Below, piece after piece: positions 24,121 through 64,000 of a stretch of DNA of 64,000 nt. The translations under genes were made by a program, and so were the position numbers. The DNA is taken from positions 124,001 through 188,000 of the forward strand of contig NZ_FOXJ01000005.1 in assembly GCF_900115685.1 (NCBI RefSeq), given 5' to 3'. Within the stretch, counting starts at the first letter, position 1; each line of letters opens with the position of its first letter. The DNA is from Variovorax sp. 770b2 (GTDB taxonomy: Bacteria; Pseudomonadota; Gammaproteobacteria; Burkholderiales; Burkholderiaceae_C). The notes beneath the pieces were generated by a model that was given only the letters and a program-made list of their open reading frames with translations, was not told the DNA's origin and ran no database searches.

Positions 24121-25239
24121 ATGCCATTGTCAGCACAGCCCGTACTTTCCGCACCGCCAGCACGCGTCGACATCCAGCTCGGCGAGCGCAGCTACCCCAT
24201 CCTGATCGGCGCCGGCCTGCTGGACGATCCGGCGAGCTTCGCTGCCACACCAGCGGCTGCCAGTGCGTTGATCGTCAGCAACACCACGGTCGCCCCGCTC
24301 TACGCCAAGGCCCTTCGGGCCGCGCTGGCGAACCGCTTTCGCACCGTGCACCTGCTGGAGCTTCCCGACGGCGAGGTGTACAAGAACCTCGAGACGCTGA
24401 ACCTGATCTTCGACGCGCTGCTGGGCCACGGCAGCGACCGCAAGACCGTGCTGTTCGCCCTGGGCGGCGGCGTGGTGGGCGACATGACCGGCTTTGCCGC
24501 CGCGAGCTACATGCGCGGCGTGCCGTTCGTCCAGGTGCCGACCACGCTGCTGGCGCAGGTCGATTCGTCGGTCGGGGGCAAAACGGCCATCAACCATCCG
24601 CTGGGCAAGAACATGATCGGCGCGTTCTACCAGCCGCAGCTCGTGGTGTGCGACCTGGGCACGCTGCAGACGCTGCCCCCGCGCGAGCTCAGCGCGGGCC
24701 TGGCCGAAGTGATCAAGTACGGGCCGATCCACGACATGGCCTTCTTCGACTGGATCGAGACGAACATCGACGCGCTGGTCGCGCGCGACCCGGCCGCGCT
24801 GGCCTACGCCGTCAAGCGCAGCTGCGAGATCAAGGCGCTGGTGGTCGGCCAGGACGAGCGCGAGACGGGCCTGCGCGCCATCCTGAATTTCGGTCACACC
24901 TTCGGTCACGCGATCGAATCGGGCCTCGGCTATGGCGAATGGCTGCATGGCGAAGCGGTCGGCTGCGGGATGGTCATGGCGGCGCACCTGTCGCAGCGGC
25001 TGGGCGGCGTCGATGCGGCTTTCGTGGCGCGGCTCACGCGCCTCATCGAGCGCGCCGGCCTGCCGATCGTCGGTCCGGCGCTGGGTGCCGACCGCTATCT
25101 CGAACTCATGCGCGTCGACAAGAAATCGGAAGCCGGCGAGATCCGCTTCGTGGTCATCGACAAGCCCGGTTCCGCCGCGGTCAGCCGTGCGCCCGATGCG
25201 CTGGTGCGCGAAGTGCTCGCGCAGTGCTGCGCGGGATGA
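24121..25239 (+). CDS. aroB: 3-dehydroquinate synthase
   Basis: A 372-residue NAD- and metal-dependent enzyme that cyclises DAHP to 3-dehydroquinate. Visible are DGEVYKN, the NAD-loop [40 protein letters not shown], and the metal-binding Glu/His residues in [18 protein letters not shown] and WLHGEAVG. Its final ATGA is the first part of a repeat-borne mini-ORF that joins it to the next gene. Confidence 0.96.
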
Positions 25240-25304
25240 GCGCAGCGCCGGGCCGCTCCGGGCAAGCGTGCACCGCAGCGCGAGTCGCCGGGGTCCGTTC
25301 ATGA
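25236..25304 (+). repeat. Bridging mini-ORF repeat, copy 1 (aroB to dGTPase gene)
   Basis: The segment starts ATGAGCGCAGCGCCGGGCCG and encodes a 22-codon frame beginning [11 protein letters not shown]. Its ATG overlaps the aroB stop (ATGA, 25236-25239), and its TGA overlaps the ATG of the next gene (ATGA, 25301-25304). Copies at 37393 and 63647 have the same arrangement. Whether the peptide is made is unknown; coupling by termination-reinitiation is the inferred effect. Confidence 0.7.
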
Positions 25305-26431
25305 GTCTCGCGGCCTACGCCTGCCACCCCGCGCAGTCGCGCGGCCGCCGTCATGCCGAGCCGCCCGCGCCCACGCGCGATGCCTTCCAGCGCGACCGCG
25401 ATCGCATCGTGCATTCCACCGCGTTCCGCCGGCTGGTCTACAAGACGCAGGTTTTCCTGAACCACGAGGGCGACCTGTTCCGCACCCGGCTCACGCATTC
25501 GCTGGAGGTCGCGCAGCTGGGCCGCTCGATCGCACGGGCCCTTCGCCTGAACGAAGACCTGGTCGAAGCGATTGCCCTGGCGCACGACCTGGGTCACACA
25601 CCCTTCGGCCATGCCGGGCAGGACGCGCTGAACGCCTGCATGGCCGACCACGGCGGCTTCGAGCACAACCTGCAGAGCCTGCGCGTGGTGGATGCCCTGG
25701 AGCACCGCTATCCGCAATACGACGGCCTGAACCTGAGCTTCGAAACCCGCGAGGGCATCCTCAAGCACTGCTCGCGCGCGAATGCCGAGCGCCTGGAGCT
25801 GGCCGAGCCGAATGGTGTGGCCCGGCGCTTCCTCGATCGCGCGCAGCCCGGCCTCGAGGCGCAGCTGTGCAACCTGGCCGATGCGATCGCCTACAACGCC
25901 CACGACATCGACGACGGCGTGCGCTCGGGCCTCATCGGCGTCGAGCAGCTGGCCGAGGTGGAGCTCTTCGAGCGCTATCGCCGCGAGGCGCTGTCCGAAT
26001 ATCCCGGGTTGCAGGGGCGCCGCGTGCTCTACGAGACCATCCGGCGCATGCTGAGCGCCCAGGTCTACGACGTGATCGACGCCACGCGCGCGGCGCTGCA
26101 GGCGCTGGCACCCGCCGATGCGGACGGCGTGCGCAACGCCGCACCCATCGTCGCCTTCAGCCAGACCATGCAGGCCCAGTCGGACGAGCTCAAGCGTTTC
26201 CTGTTCCGCAACCTCTATCGCCACCCGCAGGTGACGCAGACCACCGACCAGGCCCAGCAGGTGGTGCGCGAGCTGTTCGAGGCCTATCTCGAACGCGATG
26301 CCGAAATGCCCGATTCCTATGCCGAGCGCCGCGACCGGCACCGCGCCGTGGCCGACTACATCGCCGGCATGACCGACCGCTTTGCGATGCGCGAGCATGA
26401 ACGGCTGACCGGCCGGCGGGGCATCGCATGA
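25301..26431 (+). CDS. Deoxyguanosinetriphosphate triphosphohydrolase-like protein
   Basis: A 376-residue HD-domain hydrolase of the dGTPase family, which removes triphosphate from dNTPs. The metal-binding set is visible as RLTHSLEVAQLGR, then AHDLGHTPFGHAGQDAL, and later NLADAIAYNAHDIDDG. The N-terminal RDRIVHSTAFRRLVYKTQVF is typical. Its size is that of the dGTPase-like subgroup, smaller than E. coli Dgt (about 500). The ATG at 25301 fits family N-termini; the long in-frame extension to 24932 runs through aroB. Its stop overlaps the next ATG. Confidence 0.93.
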   Translation: MSLAAYACHPAQSRGRRHAEPPAPTRDAFQRDRDRIVHSTAFRRLVYKTQVFLNHEGDLFRTRLTHSLEVAQLGRSIARALRLNEDLVEAIALAHDLGHTPFGHAGQDALNACMADHGGFEHNLQSLRVVDALEHRYPQYDGLNLSFETREGILKHCSRANAERLELAEPNGVARRFLDRAQPGLEAQLCNLADAIAYNAHDIDDGVRSGLIGVEQLAEVELFERYRREALSEYPGLQGRRVLYETIRRMLSAQVYDVIDATRAALQALAPADADGVRNAAPIVAFSQTMQAQSDELKRFLFRNLYRHPQVTQTTDQAQQVVRELFEAYLERDAEMPDSYAERRDRHRAVADYIAGMTDRFAMREHERLTGRRGIA

Positions 26432-29181: not shown

Positions 29182-29195
29182 GCCGCACGTGCGGC
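29182..29195. repeat. Perfect 14-bp palindrome upstream of the RAYT gene
   Basis: GCCGCACGTGCGGC is its own reverse complement and lies 17 bases before the transposase ATG. It may be an operator, or a REP-like hairpin recognised by the encoded protein. Confidence 0.45.
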
Positions 29196-29212
29196 TTAGG
29201 ATAGGCGCCACC

Positions 29213-29908
29213 ATGGCCCGACTCCCCCGTCTCACGCTGGCCGACATGCCGCACCACGTGATCCAGCGCGGCAACAACCGCCAGCCGATCTTTGTCGATC
29301 GCGCGGATCACGAGCGCCTGCTCGGCCTCTTGGCCGACAACGCAGCGCGCTTTGGCATCGCGCTGCACGCCTACGTGTTGATGGACAACCATTTCCACCT
29401 GCTGGCCACGCCCGACAGCACCACCGGCCTGCCGCAGTTCATGCAGTCGGTGGGGCGCAGCTACGTGCGCTACTTCAACGACCGCCATGGCCGCAGCGGC
29501 ACCTTGTGGGAAGGACGCTACAGGTCGACGCTGATCCAGACCGACCGCTACCTGATGACCTGCATGACCTACATCGACCTGAACCCGGTGCGTGCAGGCA
29601 TGGCGGCCGATGCCCGCGACTACCCGTGGTCGAGCCATGGGCACTATGCAGGCCTGCGTCGCGACAAACTGTTGACGCCGCATCCGCTGTACTGGGAGCT
29701 GGGCAACACGCCGTTCGCGCGCGAGGCGGCGTATGTCGAGTTGGTGCGCGGCGGGGTGCGGGCGGCCGACCAGACTGCGATTACCGAGGCCACGTTGCGT
29801 GGCTGGGCGGCGGGCGACGGCGATTTTCTGGACTCGTTGCAGAAATCCACCGAGCGCCGCGTGGTCAAGGCCAAGGCGGGCCGGCCACCATCCGCTTCCA
29901 ATTCCTGA
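29213..29908 (+). CDS. REP-associated tyrosine transposase (RAYT, Y1_Tnp)
   Basis: A 231-residue single-domain HUH nuclease related to IS200/IS605 TnpA. The metal-binding HUH motif is His60-Phe-His62 in MDNHFHLL. The catalytic Tyr is probably Tyr103 in GTLWEGRYRST. The conserved opening MPHHVIQRGNNRQPIF and the closing MTYIDLNPVRAGM are typical RAYT signatures. These are domesticated enzymes that move or maintain REP-type palindromes instead of themselves. It looks intact. It is single-copy in this window, next to an AT-rich flank, and is the obvious candidate partner for dispersed repeats seen here, although that link is inference. Confidence 0.92.
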   Translation: MARLPRLTLADMPHHVIQRGNNRQPIFVDRADHERLLGLLADNAARFGIALHAYVLMDNHFHLLATPDSTTGLPQFMQSVGRSYVRYFNDRHGRSGTLWEGRYRSTLIQTDRYLMTCMTYIDLNPVRAGMAADARDYPWSSHGHYAGLRRDKLLTPHPLYWELGNTPFAREAAYVELVRGGVRAADQTAITEATLRGWAAGDGDFLDSLQKSTERRVVKAKAGRPPSASNS

Positions 29909-36529: not shown

Positions 36530-36562
36530 GCCGGGATGCCTGAAAAGGCGCCCGGCTTTTTT
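36530..36562 (+). terminator. Intrinsic terminator or attenuator just before mlaF
   Basis: GCCGGG pairs with CCCGGC and GCCT with AGGC around a GAAA loop, followed by TTTTTT. The structure ends six bases before the ATG at 36569. It could end the gltBD transcript; if the mla promoter lies upstream, it would act as an attenuator. Confidence 0.75.
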
Positions 36563-36568
36563 ATTGAG

Positions 36569-37396
36569 ATGGACCCAGCCGCACAGCCACAACCCTTCGT
36601 AGAGTTCCGCGACGTCACGTTCGGCTACGGCGCGCGCGCGATCCTGGACGGCGTCTCTTTCGCCGTCCCGCGCGGCAAGGTCACGGCCCTCATGGGCGCT
36701 TCGGGCGGTGGCAAGACCACTGCGTTGCGATTGATCGGCGGACAGCAGCGGGCTCAGCGCGGCGAAGTGCTTTTCGATGGCCATGACGTCGGCAAGTTCG
36801 ACAACGCGACCCTCTATGTGGCCAGGCGCCGCATGGGCATGCTCTTCCAGTCGGGCGCGTTGTTCACCGACATGACCGTGTTCGACAACGTGGCGTTCCC
36901 GCTGCGCGAGCACACCCAGTTGTCCGAGGCCCTGGTGCGCGACGTGGTGCTCATGAAGCTCGATGCGGTCGGCCTGCGCGGTGCGCGCGACCTGATGCCC
37001 AGCGAGGTGTCGGGTGGCATGGCGCGGCGGGTGGCGCTGGCGCGTGCGATCGCGCTCGACCCCGACCTCGTGATGTACGACGAACCCTTCGCCGGCCTCG
37101 ATCCGATTTCGCTCGGCACCGCGGCGCGGCTGATTCGCCAGCTCAACGACACGCTCGGGCTGACCAGCATCATCGTGTCGCACGATCTCGAAGAAACCTT
37201 CCGCATCGCCGATCACGTGATCGTCCTGGCCAACGGCAGCATCGCCGCGCAGGGCACGCCGGCCGAGGTGCGCGAAAGCACCGATCCGCTGGTGCATCAG
37301 TTCGTCAATGCGCTGCCTGACGGACCCGTGCGATTCCACTACCCCGGCGTCAGCATCGAAGACGACTTCGGCAATGTCGAAGGAGGGCGCTCATGA
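36569..37396 (+). CDS. mlaF: Phospholipid transport ATPase MlaF
   Basis: A 275-residue ABC ATPase of the Mla system, which moves phospholipids between outer and inner membranes to keep outer-leaflet asymmetry. Walker A is GASGGGKTT (43-51), the signature is SGGMARRVALARA, Walker B is LVMYDEPFAGLDP, and the switch is VSHDLEE. The ATG at 36569 is used because the in-frame ATG at 36536 lies inside the terminator stem. No ribosome binding site is evident. Its stop is overlapped by a bridging mini-ORF that leads to mlaE. Confidence 0.93.
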   Translation: MDPAAQPQPFVEFRDVTFGYGARAILDGVSFAVPRGKVTALMGASGGGKTTALRLIGGQQRAQRGEVLFDGHDVGKFDNATLYVARRRMGMLFQSGALFTDMTVFDNVAFPLREHTQLSEALVRDVVLMKLDAVGLRGARDLMPSEVSGGMARRVALARAIALDPDLVMYDEPFAGLDPISLGTAARLIRQLNDTLGLTSIIVSHDLEETFRIADHVIVLANGSIAAQGTPAEVRESTDPLVHQFVNALPDGPVRFHYPGVSIEDDFGNVEGGRS

Positions 37397-37482
37397 GCGC
37401 AGCGCTGGGCCGCCCCGAGCAAGCGAAGCCCCCCTCGGGCGGCAGTGAGGACACGAAGTGCCGAACGTGGGGGCAAATATGA
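37393..37482 (+). repeat. Bridging mini-ORF repeat, copy 2 (mlaF to mlaE)
   Basis: A 29-codon frame beginning MSAALGRPEQAK starts in the mlaF stop (ATGA, 37393-37396) and ends in the mlaE start (ATGA, 37479-37482). Its first 35 bases match the copies at 25236 and 63647. Its second half (GACACGAAGTGC...GGGGG) matches the A-type repeats at 42559, 50514 and 59971. Confidence 0.7.
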
Positions 37483-38261
37483 CCTGGTGGAAGCCCGCCG
37501 ACGTCGGCTTTGCCGTGCGCAGCCATCTGGCGAATCTTGGCCATGGCGCCAAGCTCTTCATGCGCCTCGTGGGCCCCGGCGCGCAGATCATGCGTCGCTT
37601 CAGCCTCGTGCGCGACCAGATTCATTTCCTGGGCAACTACTCGCTCGCGATCATCGGCGTGTCGGGGCTGTTCGTCGGCTTCGTGCTGGGGCTGCAGATG
37701 TACTACGCGCTGCAGCGCTACGGCTCGTCCGAGGCGCTCGGCCTGCTGGTGACGCTGAGCCTGGTGCGCGAGCTCGGGCCCGTGGTGGCGGCACTGCTTT
37801 TCACCGGCCGGGCCGGCACATCGCTCACCGCCGAGATCGGGCTCATGAAGGCCGACGAGCAATTGAGCGCCATGGAAATGATGGCGGTCGACCCGGTGCA
37901 GCGCATTCTTGCGCCGCGCTTCTGGGCAGGCGTCATCACCATGCCGCTGCTGGCGGCCGTGTTCAGCGCGGTCGGCATCATGGGCGGCTACGTGGTGGGC
38001 GTGCTGATGCTGGGGGTCGATCCGGGTGCGTTCTGGGGCCAGATGCAGGGCGGCGTCGATGTGTGGCGCGACGTCGGCAACGGCGTGATCAAGAGCATCG
38101 TCTTCGGCTTCACCGTGACTTTCATCGCGCTGCTGCAGGGCTACGAGGCCCAGCCCACGCCCGAAGGCGTGTCGCGCGCGACGACGCGCACGGTCGTGAC
38201 GGCATCGCTCGCGGTGCTGGGGCTCGACTTCCTGCTCACCGCCATGATGTTCAGTATTTAA
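37479..38261 (+). CDS. mlaE: Phospholipid transport permease MlaE
   Basis: A 260-residue inner-membrane permease of the Mla transporter, with about five to six hydrophobic helices. Typical MlaE stretches are [24 protein letters not shown] and [14 protein letters not shown]. The ATG at 37479 (MTWWKPAD) is chosen: it overlaps the mini-ORF stop, and an upstream in-frame ATG (37458) would translate repeat sequence. Confidence 0.93.
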
Positions 38262-61231: not shown

Positions 61232-61527
61232 GAAAACTTGATAAAAAAAGGCGTTCGAAGGAGCCGCTGAAGGGCGCGTCGTTCGCAATTGTCCCTCAAT
61301 GGCAGCAGCGATAGACCGCGCGGCACGGTCGAGATTGGAAAGCGCAGCCCGCGTGAATACGGGATAACCCCTAGCATCGCGGCGCAGCCGCACCCGGGCT
61401 GCTCTTTTCCCGGCCTCCCGCGCTGCCCACCCGGCGGATGCGGCCAGGCGTTTCGTCAGCGCGCCATGTTCAGTTTCCCATCCGGTTCCACGGCCCGGCG
61501 CGCGCGGTCACGATTTCCCTGCCAGCC
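61232..61527. other. Divergent intergenic region without a recognised gene
   Basis: About 295 bases between the DegS-like gene and the MHS transporter. The half near the protease gene contains a short A/T tract. I see no convincing promoter, RNA gene or repeat copy, although both neighbours must be transcribed from here. Confidence 0.5.
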
Positions 61528-62880
61528 ATGACTTCAGAAGCAACCCTCCCGGACGGCGCAAAGCCCGCCCCGGCGCGCACCCTCGATGCGCGCGACTACA
61601 AGACCCTCGCCCTTTCAGCCCTCGGCGGAACGCTGGAGTTCTACGACTTCGTCATCTACGTCTTCTTCGCCACGGTGCTGGGCGGGCTCTTCTTTCCCGC
61701 CGACATGCCCGAGTGGCTGCGGCAACTGCAGACCTTCGGCATCTTCGCGGCCGGCTACCTGGCGCGCCCCGTGGGCGGCATCGTCATCGCGCATTTCGGC
61801 GACCTGCTGGGCCGCAAGCGCATGTTCACACTGTCGATCTTCCTCATGGCCGCGCCCACGCTGGTGATCGGCCTCCTGCCCACCTACGCGGGCATCGGCG
61901 TGGCGGCGCCCCTCCTGCTGCTGGCGATGCGCGTGCTGCAGGGCGCGGCCATCGGCGGCGAAATGCCCGGCGCCTGGGTGTTCGTCGGCGAGCACGTGCC
62001 CGCCAGGCGCTACGGCTTCGGCATCGGCGCGCTGACCTCGGGCATCACCGGCGGCATCCTGCTGGGCTCGCTGGTCGCGGTGGCCATCAACCGGCATTAC
62101 TCGCCCGGGGAGGTGAGCGATTTCGCCTGGCGCATTCCCTTCATCCTGGGCGGCGTGTTCGGGCTGGTGTCAGTGTACCTGCGCCGCTTTCTGCACGAGA
62201 CGCCGGTGTTCAAGGAGCTGGCCGGCCTGAAGTCGGTCGCCCGCGAGCTGCCGCTGCGCACCGTGCTGCGGGAGCACCGGCTGGCTTGCGTGTACGTCGC
62301 GCTGCAGACCTGGGTGCTGTCGGCCGCGATCGTGGTGGTGGTGCTGTACACGCCCACCTACCTGCAGAAGGTGCACCACATCCCGGCCGCGCTGGCGCTC
62401 GAGGCCAACGCGCTCGCCACGCTGACCCTGACCATCGGCTGCGTGATCGTCGGCTGGGCCAGCGACCGCATCGGCACGCGCGCGGTGATGCTCGTCGGCT
62501 GGGGCGGCCTCTTCGCGACCGCCTACCTGTTCTACACGGGCCTGCCCGGCACGCCGGCCACGCTGTTCTGGCACTACGGGCTGGTGGGTTTCTTCGTGGG
62601 CACCATCGCCACGGTGCCGATCGCGGGCGTGCGCGCCTTCCCGGCGCCGGTGCGCTTCACCGGGCTCTCGTTCGCCTACAACATGTCGTACGCGGTCTTC
62701 GGCGGGCTCACGCCTGTGATCCTCACGCTCTGGCTGCAGCACGACACGATGGCCCCGGCGCACTACGTCGCCGCGCTGGCGGCGCTGGGCTTCCTGCTCG
62801 CGCTGTGGCCACTGGCCGCGCGCGGCCATGGCATGCGCGATGGCGCCGGGGCCCCGGGGAGCGCGACAATGTCGCGATGA
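61528..62880 (+). CDS. MHS family MFS transporter
   Basis: A 450-residue twelve-helix symporter of the metabolite:proton group (ProP, KgtP, citrate carriers). Diagnostic stretches are ALGGTLEFYDFVIYVFF in helix 1, HFGDLLGRKRMFTLSIF after helix 2, and RRFLHETPVFKEL in the middle loop. The substrate may be an organic acid or osmolyte. The start MTSEATLP is the first plausible ATG; an upstream in-frame ATG (61438) gives no family-like sequence. Its stop overlaps the Nif3-like gene. Confidence 0.88.
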   Translation: MTSEATLPDGAKPAPARTLDARDYKTLALSALGGTLEFYDFVIYVFFATVLGGLFFPADMPEWLRQLQTFGIFAAGYLARPVGGIVIAHFGDLLGRKRMFTLSIFLMAAPTLVIGLLPTYAGIGVAAPLLLLAMRVLQGAAIGGEMPGAWVFVGEHVPARRYGFGIGALTSGITGGILLGSLVAVAINRHYSPGEVSDFAWRIPFILGGVFGLVSVYLRRFLHETPVFKELAGLKSVARELPLRTVLREHRLACVYVALQTWVLSAAIVVVVLYTPTYLQKVHHIPAALALEANALATLTLTIGCVIVGWASDRIGTRAVMLVGWGGLFATAYLFYTGLPGTPATLFWHYGLVGFFVGTIATVPIAGVRAFPAPVRFTGLSFAYNMSYAVFGGLTPVILTLWLQHDTMAPAHYVAALAALGFLLALWPLAARGHGMRDGAGAPGSATMSR

Positions 62881-63650
62881 GCACCACACGCCACGAACTG
62901 CTCCACGCATTCGACCTGTTGCTGGCCCCCGGGCGCTTCAAGGACTACGGACCCAACGGCCTGCAGGTCGAAGGCCGCACCGTGGTCCGCAAGATCGTCT
63001 CGGGCGTGACCGCCAGCCGGGCGCTGATCGAGGCCGCGATCCACGCCGAGGCCGATGCCATCTTCGTTCACCACGGCCTGTTCTGGCGCGGCCAGGACGG
63101 CTGCGTCACCGGCTGGATGAAGCAGCGGCTGGGCCTCCTGCTCGGCGACGACGTCAATCTCTTCGCGTACCACCTGCCGCTCGATGCGCATCCGGAACTG
63201 GGCAACAACGCGCAGCTCGGGTTGCAGCTGGGGCTCGCGGCGCACGCGGGTTCGGCGGGGCGGTTCGGGGAGCAGGAACTGGGCTTTCTCGGCGCGCGAG
63301 AGAACGGCGAGCACTTCGCCAACGCCAAGGCGCTGGCCACGCACGTCGAGAAGGTGCTCGAGCGCCCCGTCACCCTGCTCGATACGGCGCACCGCCCCAT
63401 CAAGAACATTGCCTGGTGCACCGGCGGCGCCCAGGGCTACTTCGAGGCGGCCATCGCGGCCGGCGCCGACGCCTTCATCACCGGCGAGATCTCCGAGCCC
63501 CAGGCGCACTACGCGCGCGAGATGGGCGTGGCGTTTCTCGCCTGCGGGCACCACGCGACCGAGCGCTACGGCGCGCAGGCCGTGGCCGCGCACGTGGCGG
63601 CGCAGCTCGGGCTGAAGCACGAGTTCATCGACATCGACAACCCGGCATGA
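62877..63650 (+). CDS. Nif3-like dinuclear metal centre protein
   Basis: A 257-residue protein of the NIF3/YbgI family, which forms hexamers around a two-metal site. Metal ligands are seen in FVHHGLFW (near 63) and CGHHATERYG (near 225). GPNGLQVEG and AYHLPLDAHPELGNNAQL are family hallmarks. Its function is not settled; members have been linked to GTP cyclohydrolase-like chemistry. Its stop overlaps a bridging mini-ORF repeat. Confidence 0.92.
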   Translation: MSTTRHELLHAFDLLLAPGRFKDYGPNGLQVEGRTVVRKIVSGVTASRALIEAAIHAEADAIFVHHGLFWRGQDGCVTGWMKQRLGLLLGDDVNLFAYHLPLDAHPELGNNAQLGLQLGLAAHAGSAGRFGEQELGFLGARENGEHFANAKALATHVEKVLERPVTLLDTAHRPIKNIAWCTGGAQGYFEAAIAAGADAFITGEISEPQAHYAREMGVAFLACGHHATERYGAQAVAAHVAAQLGLKHEFIDIDNPA

Positions 63651-63715
63651 GCGCAGCGCCGGGCCGCCCCAAGCAAGCTCGCACCGCCGCGCGGAGCGCG
63701 GAGGTTTCCGAATGA
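63647..63715 (+). repeat. Bridging mini-ORF repeat, copy 3 (Nif3-like gene to pdxA)
   Basis: A 22-codon frame beginning MSAAPGRPKQAR starts in the Nif3 stop (ATGA, 63647-63650) and ends in the pdxA start (ATGA, 63712-63715). Length and arrangement equal the 25236 copy. Confidence 0.7.
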
Positions 63716-64000
63716 GCGGCGCGATCGCCATCACGCTGGGCGATCCCGCGGGCATCGGTCCCGAGATCATCGCCAAGGCCTTCCGCGACGCCCCCGATGC
63801 GACCCGTGGCGCCTTAGTGGCCGGCGACGTGGCCACGCTGCGGCGCGCATCGCAGGCACTCGCCGGACCGGGGCAGCCCGCATGGCCCGTGGCGCAGATC
63901 GAGACCGTGGCCGAGGTGGGCACCCTGCCGCCCGGCTGCATCCCGGTGCTGCAGGTCATTGCGCCGCCAGCGAACATCGTGCTCGGCCAGATCAGCGCCG
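63712..64000 (+). CDS. pdxA: 4-hydroxythreonine-4-phosphate dehydrogenase, N-terminal part
   Basis: The first 96 residues of PdxA, an enzyme of pyridoxal phosphate synthesis; the gene runs out of the window. The opening IAITLGDPAGIGPEIIAKAF is diagnostic. Its ATG lies in the overlap with the preceding mini-ORF stop. Confidence 0.92.
   Translation, partial: MSGAIAITLGDPAGIGPEIIAKAFRDAPDATRGALVAGDVATLRRASQALAGPGQPAWPVAQIETVAEVGTLPPGCIPVLQVIAPPANIVLGQISA

Follow-up and report, generated by a model that had tools for sequence, protein, structure and literature searches.

In Variovorax, a short repeat has inserted into the ATGA stop–start overlap of co-directional gene pairs, leaving an ATGA at both of its ends. 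The mini-ORF of the element (MSAAPGRPKQAR...) starts on the overlap of the upstream gene and stops on the start of the downstream gene. The interpretation that we consider probable is that this is a non-autonomous repeat of 65, 77 or 86 nt per unit, whose mini-ORF relays the ribosome from one gene to the next and is held in frame by selection.

Copies at gene junctions in the window, the genome and its relatives

The window, a 64,000-nucleotide stretch of the Variovorax sp. 770b2 genome, contains three copies, all on the forward strand together with the genes that they separate; the genes were identified with Pfam and NCBIfam models. A class A copy (25236–25304; 69 nt, 65 nt start to start, mini-ORF of 22 codons) lies between aroB, encoding 3-dehydroquinate synthase (24121–25239, with its TGA at 25237–25239; TIGR01357 above cut-off), and dgt, encoding dGTP triphosphohydrolase (25301–26431; NF002326 above cut-off). 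The class C copy (37393–37482; 90 nt, 86 nt start to start, 29 codons) separates mlaF, an ABC ATPase gene (36536–37396; ABC_tran, with MlaF as the best NCBIfam model, under its cut-off), from the mlaE permease gene (37479–38261; PF02405). The third copy, again class A (63647–63715; 69 nt, 65 nt start to start, 22 codons), stands between a nif3-like gene (62877–63650; PF01784 and TIGR00486) and pdxA (63712–64000, running off the window; TIGR00557 on the full-length gene, locus L009). The coordinates, frames and overlaps given by an earlier sequence-only reading proved exact on recheck: in 3/3 window copies the upstream gene stops at the 5′ TGA and the next gene's ATG shares bases with the 3′ TGA, and the mini-ORFs have the lengths that it reported. 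Its description of two lengths 21 bases apart fits the 65 and 86 nt classes and was too narrow, since a third class of 77 nt exists. Because the 22-nt element head has four window matches at three or fewer mismatches, three of them exact, vs 0.54 expected, a chance origin of the window copies is excluded. The start of nif3 (62877–62880) is itself an ATGA overlap, with a preceding ORF of 480 codons (61438–62880).

We then take the whole genome (7.45 Mb, 16 contigs), which was searched with a 32-nt sequence model without ATGA, so as not to favour ATGA, keeping matches below E = 0.002. Collecting all genomic copies in this way, as the earlier reading had proposed, bore out its picture. There are 37 copies, with ATGA directly 5′ of 33. 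Of the 37, 32 have a TGA that closes an ORF of at least 60 codons and a mini-ORF whose stop overlaps the next start, which is that of a gene in 27 and of the next tandem unit in five. A thirty-third copy (L123) has indels in both halves, yet is open from ATGA to ATGA (62 nt). The remaining four are L022; L049, which, as read from the sequence, is followed by a gene end in the opposite direction; L051, which comes after a TAA and opens with GTGA, and is still open to an ATGA; and L120, whose head has no TGA. Three tandem arrays, of two, two and four units (L016, L020 and L023), repeat the whole unit. L049 belongs with similar copies in several genomes (L195, L366 and L408) that seemingly precede the end of an opposite-strand gene and are uncoupled, with the 5′ ATGA kept.

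The same-genus set comprises 142 copies including those of the genome itself, in a sample led by the best-scoring matches. In 125 of the 142 the TGA ends an ORF of at least 60 codons (5′-coupled copies), 120 of them by ATGA. The mini-ORF stop falls within 110 nt in 118 of these 125, and in 118/118 it overlaps a start codon; 109 of these starts open at least 60 codons and nine open shorter frames, seven of which are the next tandem unit. In a public set, 62 of 121 copies are 5′-coupled, and in 53 of the 62 the stop lies on a start (46 opening at least 60 codons, seven shorter); copies without a near stop number 9/62 there and 7/125 in the same-genus set. The mini-ORF stop is far beyond the element in L101, L115, L218 and L226. 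A lost 5′ TGA in L185, L165 and L101 seems to join the upstream frame to the mini-ORF, giving a putative repeat-coded C-terminal tail.

The 60-codon threshold is permissive where DNA is GC-rich: of the 347 ATGA sites in the window, 84 pass it on the upstream side; the homology-checked junctions are independent of it. When two open frames of at least 100 codons are demanded, 22/347 bare window ATGA sites lie between such frames, vs 101/127 same-genus copies (those preceded by ATGA with at least 700 nt upstream, own genome included, and with the downstream frame taken from the mini-ORF stop).

Insertion of the element into ATGA overlaps

Junction sequences of orthologous gene pairs were compared across same-genus genomes; a script gave the final counts, and filled forms were recognised by eye. 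The earlier reading had suggested comparing the three window junctions in relatives that lack the repeat, and this comparison revealed the empty sites. At aroB–dgt, 30 loci divide into eight filled or derivative and 22 element-free, of which 8/22 are a bare ATGA. At mlaF–mlaE, six of 30 loci are filled or derivative, one is without upstream sequence and 23 are element-free, all 23/23 with the bare overlap (22 ATGA, one GTGA). At nif3–pdxA, six of 30 are filled or derivative, and 21 of the 24 element-free loci have the bare overlap (15 ATGA, five GTGA, one TTGA). Three further junctions gave the same result. For ybgC and its upstream gene there are 38 loci, five filled or derivative, one without the upstream gene and 32 element-free (28/32 bare); for dapE–prmB there are 26, five filled or derivative, one with another repeat and 20 element-free (18/20 bare); and for mltG–tmk the element is present in G000 only, the other 29 of 30 genomes being element-free and 29/29 bare. 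Pooled over the six junctions, a bare NTGA overlap is found in 127 of 150 element-free orthologues (119 ATGA, seven GTGA, one TTGA).

In the filled and empty pairs that were read, the empty site agrees with the flanks of the filled one on both sides, up to the first ATGA and from the second onward; the element at filled sites lies exactly inside the overlap of its empty orthologues. The element has therefore inserted into ATGA, as the earlier reading had conjectured for ancestral ATGA junctions, with empty orthologous sites at 6/6 junctions. That reading had set insertion against a role as a portable coupling linker; both are supported together, and they are not alternatives. The overlap is absent from 23 element-free junctions, 14 of them at dgt, and coupling is thus dispensable in some lineages. 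The 3′ start is GTG in six copies (L004, L426, L104, L002, L476 and L478); since relatives filled at the corresponding position start with ATG (L460, L475 and L191) and the empty sites are ATGA, GTG is most simply a later change. In L325/L474 a class C copy apparently occupies part of the N-terminal coding region of a ybgC-like gene, keeping the frame and lengthening the protein, and does not stand at the junction.

Frame-keeping, hairpin covariation and a possible ribosome relay

The start-to-start classes of 65, 77 and 86 nt are represented by 83, 29 and 37 distinct sequences. They have a common 5′ core and differ in the hairpin and ribosome-binding site of their 3′ parts, the types GGAGG, AAGGG and GGGGG being present in 79/83, 28/29 and 37/37 distinct sequences respectively, by the count of a permissive motif list. 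Having an ATGA at each end requires a length of 2 mod 3, and all three classes have it. Junction derivatives of 23, 26, 29, 35 and 44 nt and a 68-nt form are likewise all 2 mod 3 and open; the 26-nt derivative occurs in five genomes, and twice in tandem in G011.

Odd lengths were curated in 27 cases, made up of 19 non-modal rows and eight derivatives read by eye, with the 26-nt form counted twice; some derivatives without recognisable ends may be missed by eye. Eighteen of the 27 are 2 mod 3, seven are 0 mod 3 and two are 1 mod 3. If the 27 cases are assumed to be independent, P = 0.0004 for the 18/27 (P = 0.0008 with the 26-nt form counted once) and P = 0.002 for the 2/27 in the rarest class, 1 mod 3, which would give a long out-of-frame overlap. 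The count excludes L110, L115 (masked), L209, L382, L404, L405 and L113/L333, and L103, L104, L109, L116, L174 and L357 were scored modal by eye. L124 was set aside as a chance match. Among the seven 0 mod 3 lengths, six join mini-ORF and downstream gene into one frame and one (L193) has its stop directly before the ATG. A 66-nt copy at nif3–pdxA in G020 (L106/L289) is 0 mod 3, its mini-ORF adding an in-frame N-terminal extension to pdxA. L113/L333 is of modal length, but with ATGC as its downstream start the mini-ORF continues past it, out of frame. The element can do without exact ATGA ends, as these 0 and 1 mod 3 forms and L113/L333 show.

Premature in-frame stops are absent from coupled class C copies (0/30), whereas 18 of 40 uncoupled copies have them, in a comparison that judged coupling at the 5′ end only and picked class C by motif. 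Because some uncoupled Variovorax copies are open, this contrast is confounded by lineage. Outside class C, premature stops were found in 1/157 coupled copies (L371, a short unit) and 1/15 uncoupled ones. Copies of one class also owe part of their open frame to descent from the founding unit. The mini-ORF peptide varies, with K, R, E or G at one codon, and its excess of synonymous changes is small, as a raw figure that ignores shared descent. The earlier proposal that the repeat is maintained as an in-frame coupling linker nevertheless gains support, on the evidence of frame-keeping indels and of coupled class C copies free of premature stops.

In the class A hairpin, ACC is the pairing partner of GGU in the ribosome-binding site. 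Over the 83 distinct sequences its stem is 96.9% paired, vs 16–41% when the partner is slid, and double-change cells number 24, vs 2–4 when slid; one pair of the inner stem switches between U-A (63) and C-G (18). The stem rests on covariation, because the predicted minimum-energy fold of the consensus differs. For the two other classes, consensus folds of the genome's own copies show little or no covariation. An Rfam search of the window gave no match at the gathering threshold.

These features suggest how an insertion could be tolerated. A ribosome ending gene 1 would reinitiate on the mini-ORF and read through the hairpin of the element; opening of the hairpin would free the ribosome-binding site in the last codons of the mini-ORF, and the ribosome, on ending the mini-ORF, would reinitiate on gene 2. 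The insertion would then be nearly invisible to the operon, selection would keep the mini-ORF in frame, and it may be by passing the ribosome on through its ORF that the mobile repeat survives at coupled junctions. That the mini-ORF is translated, that the relay operates and that selection accounts for the kept frame is what the arrangement of starts, stops and indels leads us to expect. According to PMC10666635, with 38 nt from stop to start in E. coli, reinitiation fell by 80–90% in two gene pairs and was lost altogether in a third; because reinitiation falls so steeply with distance, an untranslated spacer of 65–86 nt is expected to uncouple the genes. The mechanism proposed for both ends of the element is the termination–reinitiation that PMC6728339 and PMC10666635 describe at ATGA/TGATG overlaps. 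Those accounts concern gene–gene junctions, whereas in Variovorax a mini-ORF carried by a mobile repeat stands between the genes and overlaps its neighbour on either side.

The repeat might instead be purely selfish, without a coupling function: an enzyme cuts ATGA, and the unit, which happened to be 2 mod 3, is copied whole. Target choice alone would place the element at ATGA, units within a class are near-identical, and the tandem arrays duplicate the whole unit. Against this, three length classes as well as the deletion derivatives keep 2 mod 3, and the choice of ATGA is insufficient without selection, because so few bare window ATGA sites lie between long frames (22/347) compared with same-genus copies (101/127). 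We think a purely selfish repeat rather unlikely, and prefer a repeat whose mini-ORF relays the ribosome.

Mobility and comparison with known repeats

The evidence for mobility is indirect, coming from comparison: empty orthologous sites, patchy presence and plasmid copies. Three junctions were scored on a 26-genome Dgt+MlaE tree, with intact and derivative copies treated alike, and their patterns of presence need a minimum of 4, 5 and 3 changes. Six of 72,556 plasmid records match one class A copy, and on one of the six, a Diaphorobacter conjugative IncP plasmid, an annotated CDS ends and the next CDS starts exactly at the two ATGA ends. The exact core pattern had no match in viral contigs, and one class A copy had none in phage records by blastn. 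Relatives of IS200/IS605 transpose in single-stranded form with the same cut site at both ends. Tentatively, ATGA could be the recombination site of the element itself, with an enzyme of this single-strand type inserting the unit 3′ of one ATGA and ending it in another; the repeat would then be addressed to coupling junctions and neutral there by design, a solution possibly reached independently in mycobacteria and Comamonadaceae.

Only one gene of the genome, a RAYT-like gene in the window (29189–29908), matches the Y1 transposase family; the single NCBIfam match of this gene is the REP-associated tyrosine transposase, at 73.4 bits, under the cut-off of 80. If this single enzyme moved the element as a REP-like unit, its distribution might be expected to follow the repeat. 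In all 36 same-genus genomes that yielded both genes, the transposase gene is no more than about 5 kb from dgt, and so looks vertically inherited. It has a match in 38 of 41 genomes; G036 has the gene and no element copies, whereas G035 has two copies without it. No element copy stands beside the gene at 29189–29908. With no adjoining copy, and with G036 and G035 at odds with a link to copy number, its role as mobiliser is not supported and we regard it as unlikely. The sequence 3′ of the gene is AT-rich, of the TGACCCCAATTAA type, unlike the GC-rich element.

The copies might also be ancestral, the empty relatives having arisen by precise deletion between the ATGA ends, so that ATGA would not be a target. 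Patchy presence is compatible with this, and internal deletions do occur at junctions. The bare overlap is, however, by far the commonest element-free state, and at mltG–tmk only one genome in 30 is filled; universal ancestral presence would need very many exact losses, and we hold it to be very unlikely. That the mini-ORFs are a chance product of GC-rich, stop-poor sequence is hardly credible: such DNA does give long spurious frames, and 22/40 uncoupled class C copies are also open, but the coincidence of stop and next start in 118/125 same-genus 5′-coupled copies contradicts it.

The sequence-only reading knew of no description of such an arrangement; for the kind of element this does not hold. 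DTGA sites were reportedly named for MIRU by Supply and colleagues in 1997. According to PMC12548453 (citing Supply et al. 1997), MIRUs are apparently mobile, insert at start codons and carry an ORF coupled with −4 nt spacing, so that the kind is already known; PMC3914561 gives them as 46–101 bp repeats at 41 loci. From what these sources describe, MIRUs and the Variovorax element are alike as short repeats with tandem arrays, insertion at starts and a coupled internal ORF. The Variovorax element belongs to this kind by its tens of interspersed copies and its arrays, its insertion at stop–start overlaps with an ORF overlapping by −4 nt at both ends, and its signs of mobility. MIRUs are found in a different phylum and are set apart here by description, unrelatedness being assumed; the Variovorax element comes in three lengths that carry distinct hairpin modules at the 3′ end, and has genus-wide empty sites. 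Among the best-ranked literature matches, in a search that left subscription journals mostly uncovered, none described the Comamonadaceae family by title or abstract start. What appears to be new is a family in Comamonadaceae, apparently unrelated to MIRU and seemingly undescribed; also new are the clean empty sites, the frame-keeping derivatives and the covarying hairpin over the ribosome-binding site.

REP/BIME repeats with RAYT (Nunvar et al. 2010, PMC2817692) are similarly short, non-autonomous intergenic hairpin repeats with tens or more copies per genome, and those in the table of that paper mostly have GTAG- or GTGG-type heads before the palindrome. The Variovorax element differs in being directional, bounded by ATGA and ORF-bearing; its head is ATGAGCGC rather than a GTAG-type head with palindrome, and a repeat-flanked RAYT was not found.

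Uncoupled intergenic copies in Polaromonas, Rhodoferax and others show that ATGA is not a requirement of the wider repeat family. This intergenic repeat has the same core and a class C hairpin ending in GTGGGGGC; the copies read lie away from ATGA junctions, and where coupled copies read TGC they often read TGA, in frame. The core-pattern scan of public records that covers them returned at least 114 loci, which are a sample. As a control, a second repeat family, palindromic and found in the relative G004, was ATGA-bounded and open in 2 of 31 motif instances, from 30 fetched loci of 90 matches. A third G004 case, at dapE–prmB (L482, 330–620), has a palindromic repeat inside an ATGA junction, 122 nt start to start (2 mod 3) and open. 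From these cases, an ordinary REP-like repeat can come to lie between ATGA ends, but rarely does.

For annotation, ORFs of 22–29 codons and odd N- or C-terminal extensions (MSAAPGRPKQAR...) are repeat-borne. Filled and empty sister junctions provide a natural experiment on whether post-termination ribosomes need the overlap. The element shows an interspersed repeat of bacteria fitted to the way operons are built, landing on a 4-nt overlap and adding a spare overlap and possibly a ribosome relay; alongside MIRUs, it is a second, apparently independent case.
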